Part shown: one piece after another, positions 10,563 through 63,060 of the stretch
Layout of the letters: each line of letters opens with the position of its first letter
Position numbering within the stretch: position 1 is the first letter of the stretch
DNA from: Burkholderiales bacterium
Lineage (GTDB): Bacteria; Pseudomonadota; Gammaproteobacteria; Burkholderiales; Burkholderiaceae_C
Assembly (NCBI GenBank): GCA_017307865.1
Contig: JAFKGE010000017.1
Span: 1 to 64,000, forward strand
Direction: 5' to 3'
Length of the DNA: 64,000 bases
The notes under the pieces: model-generated
What the model saw: only the letters and a program-made list of their open reading frames with translations
Told to the model about the DNA's origin: nothing
The model's database searches: none
Translations under genes and position numbers: made by a program

Positions 10563-10569
10563 GTCACTC

Positions 10570-10626
10570 CAATTTTGATAGCTATCGGCGCTTAGTATGA
10601 ACCGGCCAGGGCGCAAAAAGGCTTGA
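10570..10626 (+). repeat. GATAGCT-family dispersed repeat, copy 2
   Basis: Begins CCAATTTTGATAGCTATCG and ends near AAAAAGGCTTGAATCC. It lies antisense to rmuC, with its first bases touching the rmuC ribosome-binding site, so it forms the rmuC 5' leader. Confidence 0.75.
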
Positions 10627-10749
10627 ATCCTGGGCATTCGGCCCTGATCGGCCAGGTGCCGAGTGATTTTAGAAGCAGACCCTGCACCGCCGCGGTTGCC
10701 GCCGCATTACCGGCCCAACTTCAACAACCGTGGATCACGATAAATCTTA

Positions 10750-10773
10750 ATTTTTGATGCTCATATCAAAAAT
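10750..10773. promoter_or_regulatory. Perfect palindrome, candidate operator of the aminotransferase operon
   Basis: ATTTTTGAT (10750-10758), spacer GCTCAT, then ATCAAAAAT (10765-10773), a perfect 9-base inverted repeat. It sits in an AT-rich patch 93 bases before the aminotransferase start. The regulator is not identified; the LysR protein encoded at 13553-14458 is one local candidate. Confidence 0.6.
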
Positions 10774-10865
10774 ATATCGCTTTCAGAAATGCTAAATGGC
10801 ACCTAAAGTTGCCGCCATCGCGTTCGAAATCGCGCGCCCTACGTCCCAACATCCAGAGAAAATTC

Positions 10866-12089
10866 ATGAGCACGATTGCAGAAAAGTTTGCCCGACTATC
10901 GACCGACCACGCCCCGGGCCAGGAGGTGCGCCAGAGCGCAGGCGGTCTGGACGCCCTGCTGCGCGGCGAGGTCTTGAAGGGCACGCCCGTCGATTTCTCC
11001 CACGGCGACGTCAACCCCTCCGCCTTCGCCCCCACCCCCGGCTCGCTGGAGGAGTTCATCGCCGGCTTCAAGCGTGGCGGCGAGCAGGCGTACACCGAGT
11101 ACCGTGGCGGCGCCGAGCTGCGCGAGCGTGTGGCGGGGCATCTCGCCACCTTCACCGGCCGCGCGCTGTCCGGCGCCGACGAGCTAATCATCACCCCCGG
11201 CACCCAGAGCGCGCTGTTCCTGGCCATCGCCGCGACCGTGAATGCCGGGGACAAGGTGGCCATCGTGCGGCCGGACTACTTCGCGAACCGCAAGCTGGTG
11301 GAATTCTCCGGCGGCGAGGTAGTGCCCGTGAGCATGAACTATCTGGATCACACGGATCGCGCGGGGCTCGACCTGAATCAGTTGGAGGAAGCATTCAAGG
11401 CAGGCGTCAAGACCTTTCTGTTCTCCAACCCGAACAACCCCGCGGGTGTCATCTACTCCAAGCAAGAGATCGAGCAGATCGCAGCGCTGGCCAACCGCTA
11501 TGGCGCCACCGTCATCGTGGACCAGCTGTATTCGCGGCTGCTCTACAGCGGCTCGTCGTACACGCACCTGCGCGCCTCGGCGATCAACGCCGACAACGTG
11601 GTGACCATCATGGGGCCCTCCAAGACCGAATCGCTCAGCGGCTACCGCCTGGGCGTGGCCTTCGGCCCCAAGGTCCTGATCGACCGCATGGAAAAGCTCC
11701 AGGCCATCGTGTCGCTGCGCGCGCCCGGCTACTGCCAGGCGGTTTTGCGCACCTGGTTCGAGGAGCCCGCAGGCTGGATGCAGGAGCGCATCGCCCAGCA
11801 CCAGGCCATCCGCGATGACCTGCTGAAGGTTTTCCGCACCGTCGATGGCCTGGCCGTAAGGGCGCCCGAGGCGGGCAGCTACCTGTTCCCGCGCCTGCCG
11901 GCGATGTCGCTGTCGCAGCACGACTTCGTGCGCGTCCTGCGCCAGCAGGCCAGCGTGACCGTGACGCCCGGCACCGAGTTCAGCCCGCATGCGACGGACA
12001 GCGTGCGCCTGAACTTCTCGCAAAACCACGCGGCAGCCGTGCAGGCGGTGGAGCGCATGGTGCAGCTGATCCAGCGCTACCGCGCCTGA
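10866..12089 (+). CDS. PLP-dependent aminotransferase, class I/II
   Basis: A 407-residue fold-type I aminotransferase. Visible are 'EYRGGAELRERVAGHL', 'ELIITPGTQSALFLAIAA' (cofactor phosphate-binding region), 'FSNPNNPAGVIYSKQEI' (the N-P-N-N-P-x-G motif), 'IVDQLYSRLLYSG' with the Asp that binds the pyridine nitrogen, and 'GPSKTESLSGYRLGVAFG' with the Schiff-base lysine. Substrate is not determinable. The ATG at 10866 gives a normal N-terminus; the frame is open further upstream without a ribosome-binding site. It is followed by a RidA gene after 16 bases and a GltI-like binding protein, suggesting amino-acid uptake and transamination with RidA clearing imine by-products. Confidence 0.9.
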   Translation: MSTIAEKFARLSTDHAPGQEVRQSAGGLDALLRGEVLKGTPVDFSHGDVNPSAFAPTPGSLEEFIAGFKRGGEQAYTEYRGGAELRERVAGHLATFTGRALSGADELIITPGTQSALFLAIAATVNAGDKVAIVRPDYFANRKLVEFSGGEVVPVSMNYLDHTDRAGLDLNQLEEAFKAGVKTFLFSNPNNPAGVIYSKQEIEQIAALANRYGATVIVDQLYSRLLYSGSSYTHLRASAINADNVVTIMGPSKTESLSGYRLGVAFGPKVLIDRMEKLQAIVSLRAPGYCQAVLRTWFEEPAGWMQERIAQHQAIRDDLLKVFRTVDGLAVRAPEAGSYLFPRLPAMSLSQHDFVRVLRQQASVTVTPGTEFSPHATDSVRLNFSQNHAAAVQAVERMVQLIQRYRA

Positions 12090-50955: not shown

Positions 50956-51560
50956 GGCGCACTCCCGATGCCGCGGCGGTAGATGGCGAACGCTCCCGGC
51001 GCCGCGTGGCGAATCTGGCCCACCTTGCCCGCCAGCAGCGACTGCATGACCAAACCCTGGATGGTGCCGATGAACAGCACCGCCGCCGCGTCCACGTCGA
51101 GCGCGCGGTCGAACTTGCCCTGCGCCTTGCCGGCGTCGAGCAGTCGGCGCAGGCGCACGCCGTACTGCTGCAGCAGCGTGCGCACCATCTGCTTGGGCAG
51201 GCTGTCGTCGGCGCGCTGCAGCTCGCCGAACAGCAGGCGCGGCACGCCCGGGTGCCGGGCGACGAAGTCGATGTGCGCCATGAACATGGCCTCCAGCGCG
51301 GCGGCCGGGCCAGCGGCCTGCGCGGCCGCCTGGTCGATGCGGGCCAACAGGCGCTCGCTGACCCAGGTCATGCAGGCCTGCACGATCGCGTCCCTGCTCG
51401 GGAAGTGCCGAAACAGCGCTCCCTGGGTCAGGCCCATGCGCTCGGCGATGGCGGCGGTGGTGATGTCGCTCGGGTTTTGCCGGGCGGCCAGGTCGATCAG
51501 GGCCGCCACGGTGGCTGCGCGCCGCTCGTCGGCCGGCAGGTGTCGTGCGCGTTCGGTCAT
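50952..51560 (-). CDS. TetR-family repressor of the exporter operon
   Basis: A 202-residue TetR protein: helix-turn-helix 'PSDITTAAIAERMGLTQGALFRHFPSRDAIVQAC' at residues ~30-65 and a ligand domain 'HPGVPRLLFGELQRADDSLPKQMV'. First gene of the five-gene operon tetR-adaptor-permease-ATPase-OMF. A palindrome 22 bases before its ATG is the likely operator. Confidence 0.9.
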   Translation of the reverse strand: MTERARHLPADERRAATVAALIDLAARQNPSDITTAAIAERMGLTQGALFRHFPSRDAIVQACMTWVSERLLARIDQAAAQAAGPAAALEAMFMAHIDFVARHPGVPRLLFGELQRADDSLPKQMVRTLLQQYGVRLRRLLDAGKAQGKFDRALDVDAAAVLFIGTIQGLVMQSLLAGKVGQIRHAAPGAFAIYRRGIGSAP

Positions 51561-51581
51561 GGTCGGGCAGCGTCATGAAGT

Positions 51582-51597
51582 TAGTAATTGATTACTA
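51582..51597. promoter_or_regulatory. TetR-type operator palindrome
   Basis: TAGTAAT (51582-51588), TG, ATTACTA (51591-51597): perfect inverted repeat, 22 bases upstream of the tetR ATG, AT-rich against a GC-rich background. Consistent with autorepression of the exporter operon. Confidence 0.7.
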
Positions 51598-51698
51598 TCT
51601 TATGGCCATCGCCCGATGTCATGCAAGCCGCGCATCGCCTGCCCACTTCAGGAAAGGGGTCACCCGTCTTTCAGGCGCAACAGACCGGCACCGGCCGT

Positions 51699-53150
51699 TC
51701 AGCCGCCCGCGCCCGGCGCCGCCCCGTCGGCCGCCGGCAGGCACAGCCGCATGCGCAGGCCGCCCAGCGGCGAGGCCAGCGCCTGCACGCTGCCGCCGTA
51801 GGTCTCGGTCAGCGTGCGCACGATGTCCAGGCCCAGGCCCGAGCCGGGGCGCCGCTCGTCGCCCTGCACGCCGCGCTGGAACATGCGCTCGCGCTCGGCC
51901 TCGGCAATGCCGGGGCCGTCGTCGTCGACCGTGAAGCACAGCTCGCCGCCCGCCGGCTGCACGTCGAGCACCACGCGCGTGCGGGCCCACTTGCCGGCGT
52001 TGTCCAGCAGATTGCCCAGCAGCTCGTACAGGTCCTGCGCCTCGCCGCGAAAGGCCCCGTCACGCGCCTGCGGCGCCAGCTCGAAGACGACGCCGCGCTC
52101 CACGTGCAGGCGCGCCATGGTGCGCAGCAGCGAGCGCATGGGCCCCAGCACCGGGGTGCGCAGCCCGGTGGCGCGCACGGCGGCGGCGGCACGCGCGCGC
52201 GCCAGGTGCCAGTCGACCTGGCGCCGCGCCAGCTCGACCTGCTCGCGCACCTGCTGCGCCAGCGGACTGGCGTCCTGCTGCGCGGCGTTGGCCAGAATCG
52301 CCAGCGGCGTGTGCACCGCATGCGCCAGGTTGCCGGCCTGGGTGCGCGCGCGCTTCACCATGTCGGCGTTTTCGCGCAGCACGTGGTTGAACTCGCCCAC
52401 CAGCGGCTGCAGCTCCTGCGGGAAGTCGCCGCTCAACTGCGCCGCCTCGCCGCTGCGCACGGCGGCCAGACGCTGGCGCAGCAGCTTGAGCGGCTGCAGC
52501 GCGAAGTGCAATTGCAGGGCCACCGCCACCGCCAGGCCCAGCGCCAGCATGGCCAGCGCCGTCAGCAGCAGGCGCGTGAAGCGCTGCAGCGGCTCGGCCA
52601 GCAGCGCCTCGTCGCCGGCCACCACCAGGCGCAGCGGCGGCGCGGCGGGCTCGGGCAACTGCAGCGGCCGTGCCACGGCCAGCAGCGCGTGGCCCTGCGC
52701 ATCGTGCAGGTGCAGCACGCCATGGCCGGCGGCGGGGTACTGCGCGGGCGGCGGCGGCAGGGTCAGGGCCTGGTCCCACAGCGAGCGCGAGCGCGCGACG
52801 GCCGCGCGCGGCCGGGCGCCCCCTTCGTCCACCTGCCAGTACAGGCCCGACAGCGGCTGCTGCAGCCGCGCGTCGCCCGCCATCGGGGCCACGGTGACGC
52901 CCGTCCCCGGCGCCCAGTCGACCGCCGCGCTCAGCTGGTCGAGCTGCAGCAGCAGTTGCGCCTGCAGCTGCTGCGTGATGTGCTCCAGAAACAGCGCGCG
53001 CAGGCCCCAGCCGGCCACCGCCACCGCCAGCACGATCCAGGCCAGCGTGCCCGCCAGCAGCCGCAGGCGCAGCGATCCGCCGTTCATTGGACGAGCTGCG
53101 GCCTGGCGGCCTGCGGTGCGAGCACCTTGGGGCGGCCCGGCGGTGCTCAT
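51699..53150 (-). CDS. Sensor histidine kinase (PhoQ-like)
   Basis: A 483-residue two-TM sensor: helix 1 'LLAGTLAWIVLAVAVAGWGL', periplasmic sensor of ~140 residues, helix 2 'LLLTALAMLALGLAVAVAL', HAMP-like segment, dimerisation His in 'NLAHAVHTPLAILANAA', N box 'ELLGNLLDNAGKW', G1 'VDDDGPGIAE' and G2 'GSGLGLDIVRTL'. The H-x-x-x-TPLA form is PhoQ-like. ATG 53150 overlaps the regulator stop (ATGA); ATG 53087, 21 codons in, is an alternative. Confidence 0.9.
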   Translation of the reverse strand: MSTAGPPQGARTAGRQAAARPMNGGSLRLRLLAGTLAWIVLAVAVAGWGLRALFLEHITQQLQAQLLLQLDQLSAAVDWAPGTGVTVAPMAGDARLQQPLSGLYWQVDEGGARPRAAVARSRSLWDQALTLPPPPAQYPAAGHGVLHLHDAQGHALLAVARPLQLPEPAAPPLRLVVAGDEALLAEPLQRFTRLLLTALAMLALGLAVAVALQLHFALQPLKLLRQRLAAVRSGEAAQLSGDFPQELQPLVGEFNHVLRENADMVKRARTQAGNLAHAVHTPLAILANAAQQDASPLAQQVREQVELARRQVDWHLARARAAAAVRATGLRTPVLGPMRSLLRTMARLHVERGVVFELAPQARDGAFRGEAQDLYELLGNLLDNAGKWARTRVVLDVQPAGGELCFTVDDDGPGIAEAERERMFQRGVQGDERRPGSGLGLDIVRTLTETYGGSVQALASPLGGLRMRLCLPAADGAAPGAGG

Positions 53151-53818
53151 GCCGCCGCGCCGGTGTCCACCAGCCGGTAACCCAGGCCGCGCACGGTCTC
53201 GATGCTGCCCTCGGGCAGCTTCTTGCGCAGGCGCCCGACGAACACCTCGATGGTGTTGGAGTCGCGGTCGCTGTCTTGCGCGTAGATGTGCTCGGACAGC
53301 TCGGTGCGCGAGAGCACCTCGCCCTTGCGCTGCATCAAGAGCGACAGCAGCTTGAACTCGTGGCTGGTCAGCACCAGCGGCTGGCCGTCGACCAGCACGC
53401 GCGCCTGGCGCGTGTCCAGCCAGATCGGGCCGCAGCGCCACTCGGCACTGGCGTGCTCGCCGCCACGGCGCAGCAGCGCGCGCAGCCGCGCCAGCAGCTC
53501 CTCCATGTGAAAGGGCTTGGCCAGGTAGTCGTCGGCGCCGGCGTCCATGCCCTCGACCTTTTCCTGCCAGCTGCCGCGCGCGGTCAGGATCAGCACCGGC
53601 ATGTTGCGCCCGGCGGCGCGCCAGCGGCGCAGCACCGACAGGCCGTCCTGCACCGGCAGGCCCAGGTCCAGCACCACGGCGTCGAAGGCTTCCACCTCGC
53701 CCAGGTAATGCGCCTCGCGCCCGTCGGCGGCGCCCTCCACCGTGTGGCCGGCGGCGGCGATGGCCTGCATCAGCTGCTCGCGCAAGGTGGGTTCATCTTC
53801 CACCACGAGGATGCGCAT
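53147..53818 (-). CDS. OmpR-family response regulator (PhoP-like)
   Basis: A 223-residue regulator. Receiver: acidic pair 'VVEDEPTL', phospho-Asp in 'DAVVLDLGLPVQDG', Thr/Lys 'LILTARGSWQEKVEGMDAGADDYLAKPF'. C-terminal winged helix 'LTSHEFKLLSLLMQRKGEVLSRTELSEHIY' and 'SNTIEVFVGRLRKKL'. ATG 53818 with GAAGGGA upstream lies 26 bases inside the PepSY gene, so the three genes PepSY-regulator-kinase form one operon. Confidence 0.93.
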   Translation of the reverse strand: MRILVVEDEPTLREQLMQAIAAAGHTVEGAADGREAHYLGEVEAFDAVVLDLGLPVQDGLSVLRRWRAAGRNMPVLILTARGSWQEKVEGMDAGADDYLAKPFHMEELLARLRALLRRGGEHASAEWRCGPIWLDTRQARVLVDGQPLVLTSHEFKLLSLLMQRKGEVLSRTELSEHIYAQDSDRDSNTIEVFVGRLRKKLPEGSIETVRGLGYRLVDTGAAA

Positions 53819-54158
53819 CCGTGTCCCTTCCCGCTTCGCGGCGCTTGATCGACAGCACGCGGCCATCGACCGCATCGACCTTGAGTTTGGCCACGCGGCC
53901 GTCGTTTTGCAACAGGCGGATTTCGTAGATGAAGCGGCCGTCCTCGCGCTCGAACTCGACCTTCAGCACCTGCCCCGGCGCCTCGTGCGCCAGCTTGCCC
54001 AGCACGGTGGCCAGCGGCAGCACCTGGCCGCTTTCCAGCGCCTGGCGCGCCAGCTCGTGATCCTCGTGCGCCACCGCCGCGCCGCCGGCGCCCAGCGCGC
54101 ACAGCAGCAGCACGGCCGGCAGCAGCCGGTGCGGGCGATGGGTGAAGAACGGGCTCAT
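53793..54158 (-). CDS. PepSY-domain periplasmic protein
   Basis: A 121-residue secreted protein. Signal peptide MSPFFTHRPHRLLPAVLLLCALGAGGAAVA; PepSY core 'LPLATVLGKLAHEAPGQVLKVEFEREDGRFIYEIRLLQNDGRVAKLKVDAVDGRVL'. Such proteins often sit beside PhoPQ/QseBC-like systems and may tune the sensor in the periplasm. First gene of the PepSY-regulator-kinase operon and divergent from the cytochrome b gene. Confidence 0.9.
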   Translation of the reverse strand: MSPFFTHRPHRLLPAVLLLCALGAGGAAVAHEDHELARQALESGQVLPLATVLGKLAHEAPGQVLKVEFEREDGRFIYEIRLLQNDGRVAKLKVDAVDGRVLSIKRREAGRDTDAHPRGGR

Positions 54159-54182
54159 GAGGCCGATTTATACCGACGCGGC

Positions 54183-54199
54183 GATGAACCATCGATGAA
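54183..54199. promoter_or_regulatory. 11-bp-period direct repeat, candidate response-regulator box
   Basis: GATGAA at 54183-54188 and 54194-54199, spaced exactly 11 bases start to start, the geometry of OmpR-family sites. It lies in the 130-base spacer between the divergent PepSY and cytochrome b genes. Confidence 0.4.
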
Positions 54200-54288
54200 T
54201 GGCGTCTTCAGCAAGCGTTCACCCGGCGTGCCGAGAATGCATGGCAGGCCCGGCATGGCGCCGGACCGCAAGGACCGCTGGAGCCAAC

Positions 54289-54876
54289 ATGAAAACCCAA
54301 GGCAAGCATTACCACCCCCTGCAGATCGGTGTGCACTGGCTGACGCTGCTGCTGCTGATCGCCGTCTACGCGCTGATCGAGCTGCGCGACATCTACCCCA
54401 AGGGCAGCGCCGGGCACGAGCTGATGAAGACCTGGCACTTCATGCTGGGCATGGCCGTGCTGGCCGTGGTGCTGGTGCGCCTGCCGCTGCGGCTGGCGCT
54501 GCAGGCGCCCCCCATCACGCCGCCGCCGCCGGCCTGGCAGGAGCAGCTGGCGCACGCCATGCACTGGGCGCTCTACGGCTTTCTGATCGTGATGCCCCTG
54601 CTGGGCTGGCTGACGCTGAGCGCCAAGGGGCAGCCGATCCCCTTCTTCGGGCTGGAGTTGCCGGCCCTGATGGGGCCCGACCGCGCCACGGCCAGGAACC
54701 TGGAGGGCATCCACGAGCTGATCGGCAACCTGGGCTTCTTCCTGATCGGCCTGCACGCCGCCGCCGCGCTGTGGCACCACTACTTCATGCGCGACGACAC
54801 GCTGGAGCGCATGTTGCCGCTGGCGACCCGGCAGCCCGAACGGGGCGCGCAGGCCCGCCTGCATCGGCCGAGCTGA
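54289..54876 (+). CDS. Cytochrome b561-type membrane protein
   Basis: A 195-residue four-helix di-heme cytochrome b. Heme histidines can be placed at 'LQIGVHWLTLLLL', 'KTWHFMLGMAVL', 'ALYGFLIVMPLLG' neighbourhood 'LAHAMHWALYG' and 'FLIGLHAAAALWHHYF'. Transfers electrons within the inner membrane. ATG 54289 with GGAGCC upstream. Heads the rightward run cytochrome b-PepSY-DUF2271-PepSY/flavoreductase-ApbE. Confidence 0.9.
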   Translation: MKTQGKHYHPLQIGVHWLTLLLLIAVYALIELRDIYPKGSAGHELMKTWHFMLGMAVLAVVLVRLPLRLALQAPPITPPPPAWQEQLAHAMHWALYGFLIVMPLLGWLTLSAKGQPIPFFGLELPALMGPDRATARNLEGIHELIGNLGFFLIGLHAAAALWHHYFMRDDTLERMLPLATRQPERGAQARLHRPS

Positions 54877-54891
54877 CAAGGAGCACACACC

Positions 54892-55311
54892 ATGAAAACC
54901 CGCCAGACCATCGCCCCGGGCCTGCTGGCCCTCACCCTGGGCGCCGCGGCGCTGCCGGCCTGGGCCGGTGACGACTGCGACGTGCCGATCCAGCGCTGGC
55001 AGTCGCGCGAAGCGGTGCGCCAGATGGCCGCCGACAAGGGCTGGGAGCTGCAGCGCCTGAAGATCGACGACGGCTGCTACGAGGTGCGCGGCCGCGACGC
55101 CGAGGGGCGCCGCTTCAAGGCCAAGCTGGACCCCGAGACGCTGGAGCCCGTCAGCCTGAAGCGGCGCGAACGCGACGACGACAACCGGCGTGACCGGCAG
55201 CGCGAGCGCCGTCGCGCACACGCGCCCAGCGAGCCGGCCGCATCGCCGGGCGCCGGCCCCGCCTCACCGCTCTTCACGCCCGGCAGCAAGCCGCGTGCAC
55301 AGGTCGAGTGA
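54892..55311 (+). CDS. PepSY-domain periplasmic protein, second
   Basis: A 139-residue protein with signal peptide MKTRQTIAPGLLALTLGAAA (cleaved near LPAWA) and a PepSY-like core 'VPIQRWQSREAVRQMAADKGWELQRLKIDDGCYEVRGRDAEGRRFKAKLDPETLEPV'. Two Cys (in DDCDV and DDGCYEV) may form a disulphide. The C-terminal tail is highly charged and then Pro/Ala-rich. It starts 15 bases after the cytochrome b gene. Confidence 0.88.
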   Translation: MKTRQTIAPGLLALTLGAAALPAWAGDDCDVPIQRWQSREAVRQMAADKGWELQRLKIDDGCYEVRGRDAEGRRFKAKLDPETLEPVSLKRRERDDDNRRDRQRERRRAHAPSEPAASPGAGPASPLFTPGSKPRAQVE

Positions 55312-55317
55312 GGGTGG

Positions 55318-55378
55318 AAATTTTAAGTCAAATGTGCTTGCAGCGCTTGATGGACAAGCGCGAGCAGCTATCGAATTG
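55318..55378 (-). repeat. GATAGCT-family dispersed repeat, copy 9
   Basis: Minus-strand reading: CAATTCGATAGCTGCTCGCG, CTTGTCCATCAAGCGCTGC, then ACATTTGACTTAAAA. It fills the gap between the PepSY and DUF2271 genes, antisense to both, and its head touches the DUF2271 ribosome-binding site. Confidence 0.85.
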
Positions 55379-55390
55379 AGAGGAATGATC

Positions 55391-55867
55391 ATGAAAAAAC
55401 CCGTTCACACCGCCCTCGCCGCCGCCGCTGTGCTGGCCCTGCCCGTGCTGGCCCAAAGCCGCGAGCTCACGCTGAGCACGCAGCTGAAGAACTACGGCGG
55501 CGACGGCGCCTACCTGGCCGTGTACCTGACCGACGCCAAGGGCGCCTACGCCGGCACGCTGTGGGTGGCCGGCGGCAAGGCCAAGTACTACAAGCACCTG
55601 GCGGACTGGAACCGCCTGTCCGCCGGCGACGCCAAGCGCCTGCAGGGCGTGACCGGCGCCAGCGTGGGCGCCGGCCGCACGCTCAAGGTGACGGCCGACT
55701 TGGCGGACGCGCTGATCGACGCCGGCTATGAAATCCACGTCGACGCCGCGGTCGAGGACATGCGCGACAGCCCGTCCGAAATCCGCGTGCCGCTGACCGC
55801 CGCCGGCGCCGGCAAGGCGCAGGCCGGCAAGGCCTACGTCCAGTCCTTCAGCTATCAACTCAAGTAA
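55391..55867 (+). CDS. Exported DUF2271 protein, candidate covalently flavinylated redox protein
   Basis: A 158-residue protein with signal peptide MKKPVHTALAAAAVLALPVL then mature 'QSRELTLSTQL'. The DUF2271 core includes 'APYLAVYLTDAKG'-type region 'YLAVYLTDAKGAYAGTLWVAGGKAKYYKHLADW'. At residues 86-91 it has G-V-T-G-A-S, resembling the ApbE recognition signature D-x-x-S/T-G-A-S/T; Thr88 would carry FMN. The usual Asp three residues before is Gln here. ATG 55391 has GAGAGGA six bases upstream. Sits between cytochrome b/PepSY genes and the reductase and ApbE genes. Confidence 0.85.
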   Translation: MKKPVHTALAAAAVLALPVLAQSRELTLSTQLKNYGGDGAYLAVYLTDAKGAYAGTLWVAGGKAKYYKHLADWNRLSAGDAKRLQGVTGASVGAGRTLKVTADLADALIDAGYEIHVDAAVEDMRDSPSEIRVPLTAAGAGKAQAGKAYVQSFSYQLK

Positions 55868-55876
55868 GCAAGCCCC

Positions 55877-58084
55877 ATGTTCTGGCGCAAGATTCATCGC
55901 TGGTTGGGCCTGGTGGCCGGCACCGTCGCGCTGGTGCTGGGCCTGACGGGCGCCGTGCTCTCGCTGGACCCGGTGCTCTCGCGCTGGCAAGCCGCGCCGA
56001 CGCCCCCTGGCCTCAGCGTGGCGCAACTGGCCGAGCGCGTCGCGGCCAGCACCCCCGGCGCGGAGGAAATCCGCCGCCTGCCCTCGGGCGAGGTGGTGGT
56101 CTACGCCTTCGACAACGGCCAGGCGCGCGCCAACCGGGTCGATCCGGCCAGCGGCCAGCTGCTGGGCGCCTACCAGCCCTCGGCCACCATGCGCTGGTTC
56201 AAGAACCTGCACCGCAGCTTTCTGCTGGGCGATGCCGGGCGGCTGGCGGCGGCGGGCATCGCGCTGGCGATGGGCTTGATCTCGATCAGCGGCCTGGTGC
56301 TGCTGGCGCGGCGCCTGGGCGGCTGGCGGCAGCTGGCGGCGCGCGTGCGCAGCACGGGGGTGCAGCGCCTGCATGCGGTCACCGGCCGCGTGGTGCTGGC
56401 GGTGCTGCTGCTGACCTCGGTCACGGCGCTCACCCTGAGCGCGGCCACCTTCGGCCTGGTCACGCTGGACGCGGCGCAAGAGCCCGAGCTCGCGTCCAAC
56501 GTTGCCACCCAGGGGGAACTTCCCGTTGCTCAATTGCCCTTGCTGCGGGAGCTGCCGCTGCGCGATTTGCGCAAACTGAACTTCCCCTCCGCCGACGACC
56601 CGGCCGACACCTGGCAGGTGACGACGGCGCAAGGCCAGGGCTGGATCGACCGCCACAGCGGCCAGACCCTGGCCTGGCAGCCGGCCAGCACGGCGCAGCG
56701 CATCAACGACTGGGCCCAGCTGCTGCACACCGGCGAAGGCGCCTGGGCCTGGGCGCCGGTGCTGGGGCTGGCGGGCCTGAGCATCCCGCTGTTCTGGGTC
56801 ACGGGCGTCATGCTGTGGTGGCAGGCGCGCCGCCAGCGGCCGCGCCTGGCCGACAACAGCGCGGCCGCGCAGGCCGACACGCTGATCTTCGTGGCCAGCG
56901 AAAACGGCTCCACCTGGGGCTTCGCGCAGGCGCTGCACGCCGCCCTGGTGCAGGGGGGGCACCGGGTGCACAGCGCGGGCCTGGAAAGCTTTGCTGTGCC
57001 GGCCGGTGCCAGCCAAGTCTTCGTGCTGGCCGCCACCTATGGCGACGGCCAGGCGCCGGCGCATGCGGCGCACGCGCTGGAGCGCATCGCGCGCACGCCG
57101 CTCACTTCGGCCCGCGTCACGGTGCTGGGCTTTGGCGACCGCCAGTTCGACGCCTTCTGCGCCTATGCCGACGCGCTGGACGGGGCACTGCGCGAACGCG
57201 GCTGGGCCAGCCTGTTGCCGCTGGCCCGCATCCACCAGCAATCCGCGCAAGAGTTTGCCCGCTGGGGCGAACAGCTGGGCGAGGCGCTGGGCGAACCGCT
57301 GGCGCTGCGCTACCGCCCGCGCATTCCGCGCACCACCGAGCTGGAGCTGGTGTCGCGCCAGGATTACCCGGGCGGCGCGGGCGAGCCGGCGGCGATCCTG
57401 CGCTTCCAGTGGCCGCGGGCGGGTTGGCTCGATCGCATCACGGGTCGCGCCTTGGCGCGCTTTTCTGCCGGCGACCTGCTGGGCGTGCTGCCACCCGATG
57501 GCGCCGTGCCGCGCCTGTATTCGCTGGCCAGCAGCTGGCGCGACGGCTTTGTCGAAATCTGCGTGCGCCGCCGCGCCGGCGGCGTGTGCTCGGGCTATCT
57601 GCACGGCCTGCAGCCGGGCGCGCGCATCCAGGCCTTCATCCGGCCCAACCCCGCCTTCACGCTGCAGGCCACGCGCCACCCGGTGATGCTGATCGGCGCC
57701 GGCACGGGCGTGGCGCCGCTGGCCGGCTTCATTCGCGGCAACACCGGACGCGCGCCCATGCACCTGTACTACGGCGTGCGCGACCCGGCGCTGGACTTTT
57801 ATTTCGAGGCCGACCTGCAGCGCTGGCTGGACGAGCAGCGCCTGGCCAGCCTGCACACCAGCTTCTCGCGCACGCCCCAGGGCGGCGGCTACGTGCAGGA
57901 CGCGCTCCAGCGCGACGCGGCGCGGCTGCGCAAGCTCATCGCCAAGGGCGCCATCGTGCGCGTGTGCGGCAGCCAGGCCATGGCGCGCGGCGTGGCGCAA
58001 GCGCTGGACGCCATCCTGGGCACGGTGGGCCTGAGCGTGCAGCAACTGAAGGCCCATGGACGCTATGCCGAAGACACCTTCTGA
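55877..58084 (+). CDS. PepSY-TM / flavodoxin / NADPH-flavoreductase fusion
   Basis: A 735-residue membrane flavoenzyme. Residues 1-320: PepSY-associated TM helices ('WLGLVAGTVALVLGLTGAVLSLDP', 'KNLHRSFLLGDAGRLAAAGIALAMGLISISGLVLLARR', 'IPLFWVTGVMLWW') with PepSY repeats between. Residues ~335-470: flavodoxin domain ('LIFVASENGSTWGFAQAL', 'LAATYGDGQAPAHA', 'GFGDRQFDAFCAYA'). Residues ~480-735: sulfite-reductase/CPR-type FAD-NADPH module ('RLYSLASS', 'GVCSGYL', 'VMLIGAGTGVAPLAGFI', 'VCGSQAMARGV'). It should pass NADPH electrons through the membrane. Its last 29 bases overlap apbE. Confidence 0.92.
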   Translation: MFWRKIHRWLGLVAGTVALVLGLTGAVLSLDPVLSRWQAAPTPPGLSVAQLAERVAASTPGAEEIRRLPSGEVVVYAFDNGQARANRVDPASGQLLGAYQPSATMRWFKNLHRSFLLGDAGRLAAAGIALAMGLISISGLVLLARRLGGWRQLAARVRSTGVQRLHAVTGRVVLAVLLLTSVTALTLSAATFGLVTLDAAQEPELASNVATQGELPVAQLPLLRELPLRDLRKLNFPSADDPADTWQVTTAQGQGWIDRHSGQTLAWQPASTAQRINDWAQLLHTGEGAWAWAPVLGLAGLSIPLFWVTGVMLWWQARRQRPRLADNSAAAQADTLIFVASENGSTWGFAQALHAALVQGGHRVHSAGLESFAVPAGASQVFVLAATYGDGQAPAHAAHALERIARTPLTSARVTVLGFGDRQFDAFCAYADALDGALRERGWASLLPLARIHQQSAQEFARWGEQLGEALGEPLALRYRPRIPRTTELELVSRQDYPGGAGEPAAILRFQWPRAGWLDRITGRALARFSAGDLLGVLPPDGAVPRLYSLASSWRDGFVEICVRRRAGGVCSGYLHGLQPGARIQAFIRPNPAFTLQATRHPVMLIGAGTGVAPLAGFIRGNTGRAPMHLYYGVRDPALDFYFEADLQRWLDEQRLASLHTSFSRTPQGGGYVQDALQRDAARLRKLIAKGAIVRVCGSQAMARGVAQALDAILGTVGLSVQQLKAHGRYAEDTF

Positions 58085-59042
58085 ACCCCTCGTGCGCGCA
58101 CGCCTGCACGGCCCGACCATGGGCACGCGCTGGTCGGTGCTGTGCGATCTCGAACCCACGGTGGATCAGCCAGCCCTGCGGCTTGCGCTGGCGGCAGCCG
58201 TGCAGCAGGTCGACCAGCAGATGTCGCCCTGGAAGCCCGACAGCGAGCTGATGCGCCTGAACCGCGCCGCGCCCGAGGAATGGGTGGCGCTGCCGCCCGA
58301 GATCATGACGGTGCTGACGCGCGCCGTCGAGGTCGGGCGCCAAAGCGGCGGCGCGTTCGACCCCACGGTGGGCGCGCTGGTCGATGCCTGGGGCTTCGGC
58401 GCCGCGCGCGACACTCCCGACGCCGCCGCCATTCGCGCCGCCACGCAGGCCACGCACGGGCCGGCGCATCAGAGCCTGGAGCTGGACCCCGCCAAGGGTC
58501 GCGCCCGCAAGCACGCGCCACTGCAGGTCGACCTGTGCGGCATCGCCAAGGGCTACGCGGTCGACCGCATGACCGCCGTGCTGCAGCGGCACGGCGTGGC
58601 GCACGCGCTGGCCGCGCTGGACGGCGAGCTGCGCGCCCTGGGCGGCCAGGCCGATGGCCAGCCCTGGGCGGTGGCGCTGGAAAGCCCCATGCCCGGCCGA
58701 CGCAGCGCCCACGGCGTGCTCGAGCTGCACGACCTGGCCGTCGCCACCTCGGGCGACTACCGCCGCTTCGTGCAGGTGGGCGCCGATCGCCTGGCCCACA
58801 CCATGGACCCGCGCCGCGCCGCCCCGGTGCGCAACGACGTCGCCTCCGTCACCGTGCTGGCGCCGGACTGCATGAGCGCCGACGCCTGGGCCACAGCGCT
58901 GCTGGTGGCCGGCGGCGACCACGGCCTGGCCCTGGCGCAACGCCTGGGCCTGGAGGCGCTGTTCCTGCTGCGGCGCGGCGCGGGCCTGGTCGAGCTGGGC
59001 CTGGGCCGCTTCGATGCCCGCGCGGTCGGCGCCAACGGGTGA
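58056..59042 (+). CDS. apbE: FAD:protein FMN transferase (ApbE family)
   Basis: A 328-residue flavin transferase that attaches FMN to Thr/Ser of target proteins. Family motifs: 'GPTMGTRWSV', 'SELMRLNR', 'GAFDPTVGALVDAWGFG', 'VDLCGIAKGYAVDRM', 'DLAVATSGDYRRF', 'LAHTMDPRRAAPV' and the C-terminal 'MSADAWATALLVAG'. No signal peptide or lipobox is visible, so unlike many ApbE proteins it appears cytoplasmic. It overlaps the reductase gene by 29 bases; ATG 58065 is an alternative start. Confidence 0.92.
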   Translation: MDAMPKTPSEPLVRARLHGPTMGTRWSVLCDLEPTVDQPALRLALAAAVQQVDQQMSPWKPDSELMRLNRAAPEEWVALPPEIMTVLTRAVEVGRQSGGAFDPTVGALVDAWGFGAARDTPDAAAIRAATQATHGPAHQSLELDPAKGRARKHAPLQVDLCGIAKGYAVDRMTAVLQRHGVAHALAALDGELRALGGQADGQPWAVALESPMPGRRSAHGVLELHDLAVATSGDYRRFVQVGADRLAHTMDPRRAAPVRNDVASVTVLAPDCMSADAWATALLVAGGDHGLALAQRLGLEALFLLRRGAGLVELGLGRFDARAVGANG

Positions 59043-59123
59043 ACGCCCGATGAATCGGGCATTCAGCATCGATTCACCGTCCGGCGCGCAAACTTCAGGC
59101 ACAGTCAGCTTCGACTGCAACCC

Positions 59124-59390
59124 AGTCCAGTGAAACGGAGAAATCGGCGGTGCGTGAATGCCAGGCAGAGCCGCAATCGAGGCGTCGGGCGCAGCCGGGT
59201 TGGACACCCGGCGAGCACGGCAACGAAGAGTGCGGCCCTGCCAGGCGTTCACCCGAAGGGCGGGTGCCGCAACAGGCGCATACCGGCGTTGCGCACCTTG
59301 CCAAGGCCACCAGCCTTGGCTGCGGCACGCGCCTTGGCCTGCACCCGTTGCGACACCCGCGCACCGCCGATTTCTCCGTTTCACTGGACT
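59124..59390. mobile_element. MITE-like element with 31-bp perfect terminal inverted repeats
   Basis: Left end AGTCCAGTGAAACGGAGAAA... (59124-59154) is repeated perfectly in inverse orientation at 59360-59390. AACCC occurs just outside both ends (59119-59123 and 59392-59396), possibly a target duplication. The 267-base interior has no transposase; it contains a hairpin GCCAAGGC/GCCTTGGC (59300-59320). Short frames beginning MKRRNRRC on both strands come from the inverted repeats and are not genes. It separates apbE from the next gene and ends just before that gene's ribosome-binding site. Confidence 0.75.
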
Positions 59391-59407
59391 AAACCCAGGA
59401 GACCATC

Positions 59408-59713
59408 ATGCGCACCACCGCCCTTCTCGCCACGATCGCCGTGCTGGGCACGGCCCTCAGCGCCCCCGTGCTGGCCGGCGACCACCACAAACGTGAGCGT
59501 CGGCAGCACATCAGCGCGCCGGCCCAAACCGGCTACGACCACGGCATGCAGGTCGTGGCCAACGACGCCGGCCCCGGCCAACCCGGCCACGGCTGGCAGT
59601 ATTTTTCCGACGCCAACGCGCAGCGCGCCGTGGTCATCAGCCCCCAGGGCGACTACTACCTCAGCCAGGGCCGCGGCCTGCACTGGGTGGCTGCCGCGCA
59701 GGGGCAGGCCTGA
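59408..59713 (+). CDS. Small secreted protein, unrecognised
   Basis: A 101-residue protein with a clear signal peptide (MRTTALLATIAVLGTALSAP, cleavage near VLAG) and a His-rich mature start 'GDHHKRERRQHISAP'. The body 'GWQYFSDANAQRAVVISPQGDYYLSQGRGLHWVA' looks like one small beta-rich domain. No family recognised. The ribosome-binding site AGGAG directly follows the MITE-like element, so the gene's promoter must lie in or be replaced by that element. Confidence 0.72.
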   Translation: MRTTALLATIAVLGTALSAPVLAGDHHKRERRQHISAPAQTGYDHGMQVVANDAGPGQPGHGWQYFSDANAQRAVVISPQGDYYLSQGRGLHWVAAAQGQA

Positions 59714-59834
59714 CCGGCGCCGCCTCCGCCCCGGCCGCATGGTTTCGGGGCGGAGCGGCGCAGCACGACACCCGGCGGGCGAACCCGCACCCTGAGAATC
59801 CGCCCACCGCCGACGCACCGACGATCCCTCGCCC

Positions 59835-62405
59835 ATGCCCATCCGCGACCCCGCCCCAGCCACCGAGCCCCAGGGCCTGAGCAGCCAGCAGGCGGCCGAG
59901 CTTCTCGCGCGTGACGGCCCGAACCAGCTGCCCGGCAGCGCGCCCAAGTCCACCCTGGCCATCGTGCGCGAGGTGCTGACCGAGCCCATGTTCCTGATGC
60001 TGCTGGCCGCCGGCGGCATCTACCTGGCGCTGGGCGACAAGGGCGAGGCGCTGTTCCTGCTCGGCTTCGTCTTCGTGGTCATCGGCATCACGCTGGTGCA
60101 GGAGCGGCGCACGCAGCGCGCGCTGGAGTCGCTGCGCGCGCTGTCCGCCCCGCGCGCGCTGGTGCTGCGCGACGGCCAGGAGCGGCGCATCGCCGGCACC
60201 GAGGTGGTCTGCGGCGACCTGCTGGTGCTGCACGAGGGCGACCGCATCGCCGCCGACGCGCGGCTGCTGCAGGGCGAACTGGAGGTGGATGAATCGCTGC
60301 TCACGGGCGAATCCGTGCCCGTGGCCAAGCTGGCGGGCGACGCGGCCAAACCCGATGCAGGAGCCGACCTGTTCGCCAGCACCGTGATCACGCGCGGCCG
60401 GGGCCTGGCCCGCGTGCTGGCCACGGCCGGGCGCACGGCCGTGGGCCGCATAGGCGCCGACCTGGCCAGGGCCGAGGCGCCGCCTTCGCCGCTGCAGCAG
60501 CGCTCACGCCGGCTGGTGCGCGGCCTGGGGGCGCTGGCGCTCGCGCTGGCGCTGGCGCAGGTGCTGCTGGGCTGGTGGTGGAACGGCCGGCCGCTGCTCG
60601 ACAGCCTGCTGGCCGGCATCGCCCTGGCCATGGCGCTGCTGCCCGAGGAGATTCCCGTCATCCTCACCGTGTTCCTGGCGCTTGGCGCCTGGCGATTGAC
60701 GCGGCTGCAGGTGCTGACGCGGTGCGTCACCGCCGTGGAGACCCTGGGCGCCATCACCGTGCTGGCGGTGGACAAGACCGGCACGCTGACCATGAACCGC
60801 ATGGCCGTGGCCGAGCTGGCCACTCCCACCGGCCATTGGAGCGCACAGGACGCACAGGAGCTGCCCGAGGACTTTCACCGGCTGGTGGAATTCGGCATGC
60901 TGGCCACGCCGGGCGACCCGTTCGACCCCATGGAGCAGGCCATACAGCGCTTCGGCCACGACTGGCTGCGCGGCACCGAGCATGTGCACGACGGGCGCGA
61001 GCCGGTGTTCGAGTACGCGCTGTCGGGCGAGATCCTGGCCATGACGCGCGTGTACGCCAGCGGTGCCCCCGACCTGCACTTGCTGGCCACCAAGGGCGCG
61101 CCCGAGGCCGTGGCCGACCTGTGCCACCTGGACGCGCCACGCCTGGCCGCCGTGCGCGCCCAGGTAGACGCCCTGGCCGAGCGCGGCCTGCGCGTGCTGG
61201 GCGTGGCCTGCGGGCGCTGGACCGGCCAGCCCGCCCAAGCGTGGCCGCCCAGCCAGCACGACTTCGACTTCGAGTTCCTGGGCCTGCTGGCGCTGGCCGA
61301 CCCGCCGCGCCCCGAGGTGCCGGGCGCCATTGCCGAATGCCGCGCCGCCGGCGTGCGCGTGGTGATGATGACCGGCGACCACCCGGCGACGGCGCGCGCC
61401 ATCGCGCGCCAGGTGGGCCTGTCCGAGCGGCCAGAGGTCATCACCGGCGACGAGATCGGGCAGCTGGACGACGCCACGCTGCGCGAGCGCCTGCGCCATG
61501 TGGACCTGTGCGCGCGCCTGAAGCCCGAGCACAAGCTGCGCCTGGTGCAGCTGCTGCACGCGGGCGGCGAGGTAGTGGCCATGACCGGCGACGGCGTGAA
61601 CGACGCCCCCGCGCTCAAGGCCGCGCATGTGGGCATCGCCATGGGCGAACGCGGCACCGACGTGGCGCGCGAGGCAGCGGCCCTGGTGCTGCTCCAGGAC
61701 AGCTTCGCCCACATCGTCGCCGCCGTCGCGCAAGGCCGGCGCATCGACGACAACCTGCGCAAGGCCACGCGCTTCGTGTTTGCCGTGCACCTGCCCATCG
61801 TGGCGCTGGCCCTCGCCCCCACGCTGCTGCACTGGCCGGCGCTGCTGCTGCCGGTGCACATCGTGCTGATGGAGCTGCTCATCGACCCGGCCTGCTCCAT
61901 CGTCTTCGAGGCCGAGCCCGCGGCGGACGACCTCATGCAACGCCCGCCGCGGCCGGTGGATGACTCGCCGTTCGCGCTGCGCGCCCTGCTGCCGCCGCTG
62001 CTGCAGGGCGCCGGCATCGCCGCCCTGCTGCTGGCCGCGCAGGCCTGGCTGCAAGCCCAAGGCTGGAGCCAGGCCCAGGGCCGCACGGTGGTCTTCGGCG
62101 CGCTGCTGATCTGCGTGCCGCTGCTGATCCTGGCGCAGCGCAACCCGGCGCGCGCCGTGCTGCACCGCGGCGCGGCGCCCAATCCCTGGCTGCGGCCCAT
62201 GGTGGCCGCCGTGGGCCTGCTGCTGCTGGCCGTGCTGGCCATCCCGGGTCTGCGCCAGCTGATGGGGCTGGCCGAGGTCGGCTGGGCGGGTCTCGCGGCC
62301 GGCGCCGCCGTGCTGGCGCTGTGCCTGCTCTGGCTGGAGCTGCTGCGCCTGGCCTTCAGATCGAGCGCATCAGCCCGCCGTCGACCCGGATATTCTGCCC
62401 CGTGA
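59835..62405 (+). CDS. Cation-translocating P-type ATPase
   Basis: An 856-residue P-type ATPase. N-terminal cation-ATPase domain 'GLSSQQAAELLARDGPNQLP'; actuator 'DESLLTGESVPV'; M4 ion motif 'ALLPEEIPVILTVFLALGAWRL'; phosphorylation 'LAVDKTGTLTMNRM'; nucleotide domain 'LATKGAPEAV'; hinge 'VAMTGDGVNDAPALKAAHVGIAMG'; then C-terminal helices. P-E-E-I-P in M4 resembles P2-like bacterial ATPases annotated as Ca or unspecified cation pumps; ion unknown. Its last 50 bases overlap the convergent SDR gene. Confidence 0.92.
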   Translation: MPIRDPAPATEPQGLSSQQAAELLARDGPNQLPGSAPKSTLAIVREVLTEPMFLMLLAAGGIYLALGDKGEALFLLGFVFVVIGITLVQERRTQRALESLRALSAPRALVLRDGQERRIAGTEVVCGDLLVLHEGDRIAADARLLQGELEVDESLLTGESVPVAKLAGDAAKPDAGADLFASTVITRGRGLARVLATAGRTAVGRIGADLARAEAPPSPLQQRSRRLVRGLGALALALALAQVLLGWWWNGRPLLDSLLAGIALAMALLPEEIPVILTVFLALGAWRLTRLQVLTRCVTAVETLGAITVLAVDKTGTLTMNRMAVAELATPTGHWSAQDAQELPEDFHRLVEFGMLATPGDPFDPMEQAIQRFGHDWLRGTEHVHDGREPVFEYALSGEILAMTRVYASGAPDLHLLATKGAPEAVADLCHLDAPRLAAVRAQVDALAERGLRVLGVACGRWTGQPAQAWPPSQHDFDFEFLGLLALADPPRPEVPGAIAECRAAGVRVVMMTGDHPATARAIARQVGLSERPEVITGDEIGQLDDATLRERLRHVDLCARLKPEHKLRLVQLLHAGGEVVAMTGDGVNDAPALKAAHVGIAMGERGTDVAREAAALVLLQDSFAHIVAAVAQGRRIDDNLRKATRFVFAVHLPIVALALAPTLLHWPALLLPVHIVLMELLIDPACSIVFEAEPAADDLMQRPPRPVDDSPFALRALLPPLLQGAGIAALLLAAQAWLQAQGWSQAQGRTVVFGALLICVPLLILAQRNPARAVLHRGAAPNPWLRPMVAAVGLLLLAVLAIPGLRQLMGLAEVGWAGLAAGAAVLALCLLWLELLRLAFRSSASARRRPGYSAP

Positions 62406-63060
62406 TGTAGGCCGCGCCGGCGGACGCCAGGAAGGCCACGGTGGCCGCAATCTCGTCGGCCGTGCCGTAGCGCTGCATGGGCACGCTCTGGCGGCGTGCC
62501 TCCTGCGCGGGCAGGCTGTCGATCCAGCCGGGCAGCACGTTGTTCATGCGAATGCCGTCCGCCGCGTAGCGGTCGGCAAACAGCTTGGTGAAGGCCGCCA
62601 GGCCGGCGCGAAACACGGCCGATGTCGGGAACAGCTCGCTCGGCTCGAAGGCCCAGGCGCTGGAGATGTTGACGATGGCGCCGCCCCCCTGGCGCTGCAT
62701 GGCGGGCACCACCAGGCGCGCCGGGCGGATGACGTTGAGCAGGTAGGTGTCCATGCCGCGCTGCCAGTCGGCATCGGGGATGCCCAGCAGCGGCCCCTTG
62801 GGCCCGTGGCCGGCGCTGTTGACCAGCACGTCGATGCTGCCGAAGCGCGCCAGCGCCGCGTCGACGAAGCGCGCCAGGTCGTCGGGCGACTGGTTGGAGC
62901 CCGTGACGCCCAGGCCACCCAGCTCCTGCGCCAACCGCTCGCCCTTGCCGGACGAGGACAGGATGGCGACCTGGTAGCCATCGGCGGCCAGCCGGCGCGC
63001 GGCGGCGGCGCCCATGCCGCTGCCGGCGGCGGTGAGAAGGGCGACCTTGGATTCGGGCAT
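62356..63060 (-). CDS. SDR-fold protein with altered catalytic site
   Basis: A 234-residue Rossmann-fold short-chain dehydrogenase homologue: cofactor loop 'LLTAAGSGMGAAAARRLAADGY', 'VLVNSAGHGPKGPLLG' (N-A-G), 'GAIVNISSAWAF' with Ser, and C-terminal 'GTADEIAATVAFLASAGAAYITGQNIRVDGG'. Where Y-x-x-x-K should be, the sequence reads S-A-V-F-R-A-G-L-A-A-F-T-K, so the catalytic Tyr and Lys appear replaced by Ser and Arg. Function as an oxidoreductase is doubtful. AGGAG precedes the ATG; a dispersed repeat lies just upstream. Confidence 0.88.
   Translation of the reverse strand: MPESKVALLTAAGSGMGAAAARRLAADGYQVAILSSSGKGERLAQELGGLGVTGSNQSPDDLARFVDAALARFGSIDVLVNSAGHGPKGPLLGIPDADWQRGMDTYLLNVIRPARLVVPAMQRQGGGAIVNISSAWAFEPSELFPTSAVFRAGLAAFTKLFADRYAADGIRMNNVLPGWIDSLPAQEARRQSVPMQRYGTADEIAATVAFLASAGAAYITGQNIRVDGGLMRSI

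Follow-up and report, generated by a model that had tools for sequence, protein, structure and literature searches.

How is a flavin-based electron exporter switched on, and on which side of the membrane does its exported carrier receive its flavin? Both questions are raised by a locus in the window, i.e. the whole 64,000-nucleotide stretch analysed here (positions 1 to 64,000 of contig JAFKGE010000017.1, Burkholderiales bacterium assembly GCA_017307865.1), in which a two-component system (TCS) of a response regulator (RR) and a sensor histidine kinase (HK), preceded by a small PepSY gene, faces away from a redox operon encoding cytochrome b561, a PepSY_2 protein, an exported DUF2271 protein, a PepSY_TM-flavodoxin-FNR fusion and the flavin mononucleotide (FMN) transferase ApbE (Table 1). 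We consider it likely that this PepSY-modulated TCS controls the electron-export chain through a doubled FeuP-type box, with flavinylation possibly taking place in the cytosol. A sequence-only reading of the same DNA had described two PepSY proteins, the TCS, b561, DUF2271, the fusion and ApbE as contiguous; all were found, with the HK gene lying mostly outside the interval it gave. As a whole its interpretation is partly supported, and the leaderless ApbE, the two cis elements and the small secreted protein gene described below go beyond it.

A composite element between the TCS and the redox operon

The element consists of four half-sites on a single 11-bp period, two facing each way, and its UP copy lies in the stretch that separates the small PepSY gene from the redox operon. 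UP and the second copy, DOWN, are the only matches in the window at a threshold of at least 15 of 16 positions, and the whole 3.9-Mb genome yields only the same two at one mismatch or fewer. Across related loci (the best 80 of 474 found in GTDB genomes, mostly Burkholderiales), the full element gave 57 matches at 42 of the 80 loci, every one with a spacer of 7 even though spacers of 4–11 were permitted; a mononucleotide shuffle gave 0 matches. Exactly 14 bases past the last TTCA, [CAG]AAT is present in 36 of the 47 elements that are not at apbE ends, and on the other side a loose TATA-like match (to a broad pattern) accompanies 22 of the 27 elements beside the small PepSY gene. For the simpler TTCAT-N6-TTCAT, 0.01 occurrences would be expected in the window and one is present; among related TCS loci, 18 of the 31 promoter regions contain it, in one orientation only, and the rest of the 80-locus sequence (1.03 Mb) adds another 19 copies, 13 of them within 100 bases of the start of a PepSY_2 frame. 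TTCA-N7-TTCA has been proposed as a candidate FeuP site in Sinorhizobium meliloti (PMC3616915) and, as in the FeuNPQ system, such sites stand here ahead of both the targets and the TCS operon. Word searches, which covered open papers only, returned no report of the composite element, and no TTAAG-type PmrA/BqsR box was seen by eye in the 170-base and 181-base intergenic stretches.

The TCS module, with its small exported PepSY gene directly upstream of RR and HK, has the DbfQRS-like arrangement. PepSY-RR-HK modules are described as widespread, with DbfQ acting on the sensor DbfS to favour its phosphatase activity (PMC12714742). True PhoPQ was considered and rejected, since both proteins miss the NCBIfam equivalog cut-offs for PhoQ and PhoP (Table 1), and the label "PhoPQ-like" given by the sequence-only reading is not retained; its proposal that the redox set is under two-component control is supported by the sequence. 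The signal is a matter of guesswork: Fe(II) sensing has been reported for BqsS, which also has PepSY neighbours (PMC12666569), and iron left the output of DbfQRS unchanged in V. cholerae (PMC12714742).

The element follows the TCS across genomes

The element is found at 29 of the 31 loci with an adjacent TCS and at 13 of the 49 without. In ten whole genomes carrying the DUF2271 subgroup of the window, a separate sample for counts of HK, ApbE, FMN_bind and the element, six have an HK orthologue (E <= 1e-60), five of them with the element (not G017), and one of the four without an orthologue (G023) has a single one-mismatch copy; where the TCS lies elsewhere in the genome (G025, G032), an element copy lies beside it. 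A second sample comprised 49 genomes whose locus has no adjacent TCS (G003, G023 and G025 included). Here an HK match at E <= 1e-40 is present in 24 genomes and reaches 1e-74 or better, a line for strong matches that was set after the list had been inspected, in 20. The element occurs in 18 of these 20 versus 2 of the 29 others (Fisher 2.7e-9, overstated since the genomes are related), and 12 of the 20 have a copy 1.0–1.6 kb upstream of the HK match. All 13 loci that carry the element without an adjacent TCS belong to genomes with an HK at 1e-84 or better; among loci of the same sample that lack the element, the genome has an HK at 1e-80 in 6 of 36 (7 at 1e-74). Inspection of 18 chosen regions with remote element copies placed these beside the TCS (L216, L229, L230), a ferric-reductase-type gene (L217, L220, L221 and again L216), b561 (L219) or the small secreted protein gene (L222, L224, L225).

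Several cases weigh against the association. Two loci have the TCS and no full element (L059, L069); three genomes have an HK orthologue and no element (G017, the genome of L069, together with G555 and G561); G556 has the element with a weak HK match only; and G572 (identical with G023) has no HK match and a copy with one mismatch. Moreover, four remote copies lie beside nothing recognised (L213, L218, L226 and, at a contig end, L223), and four adjoin a different RR of ~41% identity (L214, L215, L227, L228, the last two with one mismatch), perhaps representing a sister system built on these half-sites. These four copies, and the relatedness of the genomes, which makes the counts non-independent, would also fit binding by another regulator, or a non-regulatory repeat, with the element accompanying the TCS by descent. 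We regard this as quite unlikely in view of the exact 11-bp period, the fixed distance to the AAT -10 motif and the presence of copies ~1.0–1.6 kb upstream of a remote HK in 12 of 20 genomes.

The co-distribution of a common element with the HK likewise argues against a locus that is an ordinary Fur-type assimilatory iron reductase with a TCS as its coincidental neighbour, as does the absence of DUF4198 and TonB families among the ten window proteins scanned with Pfam. For PepSY/DUF2271 clusters of Shewanella and Caulobacter, Fur regulation or a link to iron is reported (PMC8238504, PMC12004947), and a Ferric_reduct-type protein is encoded at 15 of the 80 loci (identity confirmed with Pfam for six, among them L062, L104 and L109), b561 at 12, the two never together; we judge the Fur-type explanation improbable nonetheless, and regulation by the TCS through the element, with or without added control by Fur, is preferred.

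The redox core is a PepSY-like flavinylation system

The core of the locus, comprising the fusion, the exported DUF2271 and ApbE, is a PepSY-like flavinylation system of published type. The 2021 survey of these systems reports that DUF2271 is flavinylated by its cognate ApbE; of the 3220 PepSY-like clusters counted there, 2833 have DUF2271, and 1077 PepSY-like genes carry an NAD-binding domain (PMC8238504). In the window, the PepSY_TM protein is clustered with ApbE and a candidate flavinylation substrate, [S/T]GA[S/T] falls within DUF2271, and the hydrophobic leader of DUF2271 provides an exported component. The redox part of the sequence-only reading is sound, but not new: its remark that ApbE-linked PepSY systems are known in outline is borne out by that survey, and the sequence supports its route from NADPH through a membrane flavoreductase to a periplasmic FMN protein.

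The fusion protein comprises 735 residues, with four transmembrane (TM) segments predicted from hydropathy and a C-terminal part closest to CysJ. Residues H7, H112, H166 and H284 are identical in 73/73 rows of an alignment of the window protein with 72 of 79 related frames (those longer than 650 residues, shorter ones being dropped). Four TM segments with four conserved His residues, here assigned from hydropathy and conservation only, conform to the diheme PepSY reductase design described for FoxB of P. aeruginosa (PMC11334425), and the fusion would accordingly be expected to bind two b hemes; against this, its PepSY_TM part resembles FoxB (7abw) only weakly by sequence (E 0.018). NADPH is preferred over NADH as the probable donor because of family resemblance.

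Ser91 is the predicted flavin acceptor of DUF2271

ApbE joins FMN to the C-terminal Thr/Ser of the motif D-x-x-[S/T]-G-A-[S/T] (PMC12052999; PMC11334425). Counting from the ATG at 55391 (a second in-frame ATG lies two codons upstream), the GVTGAS motif of DUF2271 places Thr at residue 88 and the last Ser at residue 91. Because ApbE modifies the last residue of its motif, the predicted acceptor is Ser91, with Thr88 at the inner position, rather than Thr88 as the sequence-only reading had it. That reading correctly recognised a near-ApbE signature conserved beside apbE, since the motif is TGAS in 79 of the 80 DUF2271 relatives and SGAS in one; its refuting condition, lack of conservation at Thr88, watches the wrong residue, although this position is itself nearly fixed (79 T, 1 S); the motif-final Ser is retained in 80/80. 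Another [ST]GA[ST] motif conserved within the operon was not found, scattered occurrences being limited to 12/79 fusions, 4/80 PepSY_2 and 2/74 ApbE proteins. We infer that FMN is carried on Ser91. Two points speak against this assignment, namely that the first-position Asp of the motif is Gln in the window protein and Asp in just 24/80 relatives, and that ApbE is said to prefer Thr over Ser (PMC12052999). In another DUF2271 group met here, the motif is often DGVSGAT or DGVTGPT. The AlphaFold2 model of DUF2271 has a mean predicted local distance difference test (pLDDT) score of 67.8, with residues 63–90 below 50, and a PDB structure search with this modest model gave no match at E <= 0.001; the PDB sequence search returned weak, implausible matches only, which were set aside.

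A leaderless ApbE and an exported substrate

The window ApbE has the conserved catalytic residues of an FMN transferase, aligned to the solved ApbE 6nxi, with H248 in 75/75 and D276 in 74/75 rows (window included). It carries no N-terminal export or lipoprotein signal, and 58056 is the first ATG, GTG or TTG of its frame. Leaders were judged by eye and from hydropathy, as a 12-residue stretch of mean Kyte-Doolittle value >=1.6 within 45 residues ahead of the ApbE domain, with DUF2271 judged likewise. By this test, ApbE is without a hydrophobic N-terminal stretch at 74/74 related loci with apbE, and a hydrophobic leader is present on DUF2271 at 79/80; that of the window protein is Sec-type, with no twin arginine. 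The gene was not seen at six of the 80 loci (L065, L083, L100, L110, L121, L124), where, in all but L065, the available sequence ends within the fusion gene. Separately, the apbE frame of L119 (about 9764-10993) contains additional in-frame sequence close to its start, and the same gene is found in L036.

The source genome (3.9 Mb, rated 100% complete) encodes one DUF2271, one ApbE and no FMN_bind protein, and five of the ten subgroup genomes, itself included (G000, G003, G014, G017, G025), carry this ApbE alone and no FMN_bind protein. Four genomes (G018, G023, G032, G038) provide an internal contrast in the form of a second ApbE with a clear leader, located within ~8 kb of an FMN_bind protein in an 802–889-residue frame, which by size only suggests a NosR-like protein. 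In G110, the second ApbE has a stretch that attains the hydropathy threshold (1.88) and was judged to be part of the domain. For the other DUF2271 group, the analysis covered 51 loci, among them six GAS-motif members from outside the order (L175-L179, L182) that are likewise leaderless. A separate ApbE of that group is present at 26 of the 51 loci, with one clear lipoprotein-like leader (L156), two ambiguous cases (L048, L144) and 23 below threshold; at 17, no ApbE was found nearby. Two further loci, L173 and L174, show the opposite arrangement, with ApbE and DUF2271 fused in a single reading frame that carries an export-like leader.

ApbE thus seems to sit across the membrane from its DUF2271 target. 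Because ApbE is leaderless, DUF2271 has a leader and the genome has no other ApbE, the simplest reading is that FMN is attached in the cytosol: a cytosolic ApbE would use cytosolic flavin adenine dinucleotide (FAD) to place FMN on the unexported Sec-type precursor, and the cofactor would cross the membrane with the protein. We put this forward tentatively, as a possibility somewhat short of an even chance. Were it true, the usual order of export followed by periplasmic flavinylation would be reversed, and FAD export would no longer be needed. A search of the literature at title and abstract level found no report of an exported protein flavinylated in the cytosol; cytosolic ApbE is named for Klebsiella and trypanosomatids in a 2025 review (PMC12052999).

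A leaderless ApbE might alternatively enter the periplasm by a route that its sequence does not reveal, and DUF2271 would then receive its flavin there after export, in the usual manner. In the other known cases, DUF2271 and NqrC substrates are modified by an ApbE that is itself exported (PMC8238504, PMC12052999), and leaders are present on the L156 ApbE beside DUF2271 and on the L173 and L174 fusions; however, the lack of a hydrophobic N-terminal stretch in 74/74 ApbE proteins and the clear leaders on second copies in four of the same genomes make such a route unlikely. We give still less weight to an ApbE that serves another, cytosolic substrate, with DUF2271 not flavinylated in this subgroup. 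The cytosolic ApbE of Klebsiella does act on a cytosolic fumarate reductase (PMC12052999), and the motif Asp is gone in 56/80, whereas the final Ser is retained throughout and neither a second conserved motif within the operon nor an FMN_bind protein in the genome offers another target.

The small secreted protein behind the DOWN element

At 11 of the 12 other loci that carry the DOWN element, it is closely followed by a gene for a ~100-residue secreted protein (L030, L049, L050, L052, L055, L060, L061, L083, L092, L101, L109; the exception is L056). In the window, a 267-bp insertion lies between the two. It has a 96% identical second copy in the source genome (G000 C84:122859-123124), and this insertion, which resembles a miniature inverted-repeat transposable element (MITE), may separate the DOWN promoter from its gene. 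BLAST places the small protein at 16/80 loci; a homologue search brought up 69 proteins, all lacking Pfam domains and, where named, called hypothetical. The family has a charged N-terminal half and a conserved core, WxYF...RAVVISP...YY. The C-terminal half of the structural model is confident and had no PDB match at E <= 0.001. Pfam matches of the protein and its relatives lay below the cut-off and were not believed.

Features of the locus

The genes of the locus are confirmed as real, family scores this high being far beyond chance. Rfam at the gathering threshold gave no match in 51500-62500. An ATPase related to the adjoining P-type ATPase occurs at 16/80 related loci.

Table 1. Coordinates of features of the locus within the window
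Feature	Position	Strand	Evidence
Sensor histidine kinase (HK), HATPase_c	51699..53150	-	best NCBIfam match PhoQ, 136.3 of 497 bits needed
OmpR-family response regulator (RR)	53147..53818	-	best NCBIfam PmrA 216 of 330 bits, PhoP 207.3 of 336
Small exported PepSY protein, first gene of PepSY-RR-HK operon	53793..54158	-	PF03413 E 2.2e-9; hydrophobic leader
UP element TGAA-N7-TGAA-N7-TTCA-N7-TTCA, divergent promoter	54185..54221	.	sequence pattern
Cytochrome b561	54289..54876	+	PF01292 E 4e-28
Exported PepSY_2 protein	54892..55311	+	PF13670 E 1.5e-24; leader
DUF2271 protein, Sec-type leader, predicted FMN acceptor Ser91	55391..55867	+	PF10029 E 2.8e-35
Ser91 codon, final residue of GVTGAS	55661..55663	+	conserved 80/80
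PepSY_TM-flavodoxin-FNR (NAD-binding) fusion	55877..58084	+	domains; four predicted TM segments; candidate heme ligands H7, H112, H166, H284
ApbE FMN transferase, no export signal	58056..59042	+	PF02424 E 4.2e-83
DOWN element, same composite as UP, overlaps apbE stop codon	59040..59076	.	sequence pattern
MITE-like insertion, 31-bp perfect terminal inverted repeats, leader of next gene	59124..59390	.	sequence
Small secreted protein, unnamed family, behind DOWN element	59408..59713	+	homologue search; leader
Cation P-type ATPase adjoining the set	59835..62405	.	Pfam

Proposed mechanism

In the proposed mechanism, the PepSY-modulated TCS would turn on transmembrane electron export via its dedicated, doubled FeuP-type box, with the RR binding the two back-to-back half-site pairs of the divergent promoter and driving the TCS and the redox operon alike, while the second element at the apbE stop codon would drive the small secreted protein. 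Electrons would pass from NADPH to FAD in the CysJ-like FNR domain and to FMN in the flavodoxin domain, then to two b-type hemes at H7, H112, H166 and H284 of the PepSY_TM part, and from there to FMN on Ser91 of periplasmic DUF2271, loaded by the leaderless ApbE in the cytosol ahead of Sec passage. The oxidised acceptor at the end of this chain is our guess, most likely ferric iron, or else another periplasmic metal or redox partner.

With 2833 counted in PMC8238504, DUF2271-bearing clusters of the PepSY-like type are common, and this locus makes both their control and the site of flavin attachment testable. It offers a small candidate regulon flagged by a conspicuous DNA element, a contrast of leaderless and leader-bearing ApbE inside the same genomes, and an unnamed small secreted protein as a likely added partner of the set; it would also tie signalling of the FeuNPQ/DbfQRS/BqsPQRS type to a flavin-based electron exporter.

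Comparison with known systems

The locus shares with the PepSY-like flavinylation systems, as outlined in PMC8238504, the clustering of PepSY_TM, ApbE and a DUF2271 with [S/T]GA[S/T], as well as the NAD-binding domain on the PepSY protein. It differs from them in its leaderless ApbE, in a fixed Ser acceptor combined with a relaxed Asp, and in the joining of a TCS, b561 and a small secreted protein, with no DUF4198 among the scanned proteins. The membrane part of the fusion is similar to FoxB (7abw; PMC11334425) in its four predicted TM segments and four conserved His residues, to which the window protein adds flavodoxin and FNR domains. Like the cytosolic ApbE of Klebsiella, the window ApbE lacks a signal peptide, but the Klebsiella substrate stays in the cytosol, whereas that of the window has an export signal (PMC12052999). 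The exported PepSY gene just upstream of RR and HK is common to DbfQRS of V. cholerae and BqsPQRS of P. aeruginosa (PMC12714742, PMC12666569); in contrast to these, the window module is proposed to drive a redox operon from a common divergent promoter. With FeuNPQ of S. meliloti (PMC3616915), the locus shares TTCA-N7-TTCA, a likeness of site pattern, whereas the window element joins two such sites, inverted, on one 11-bp period and stands before a different set of targets.

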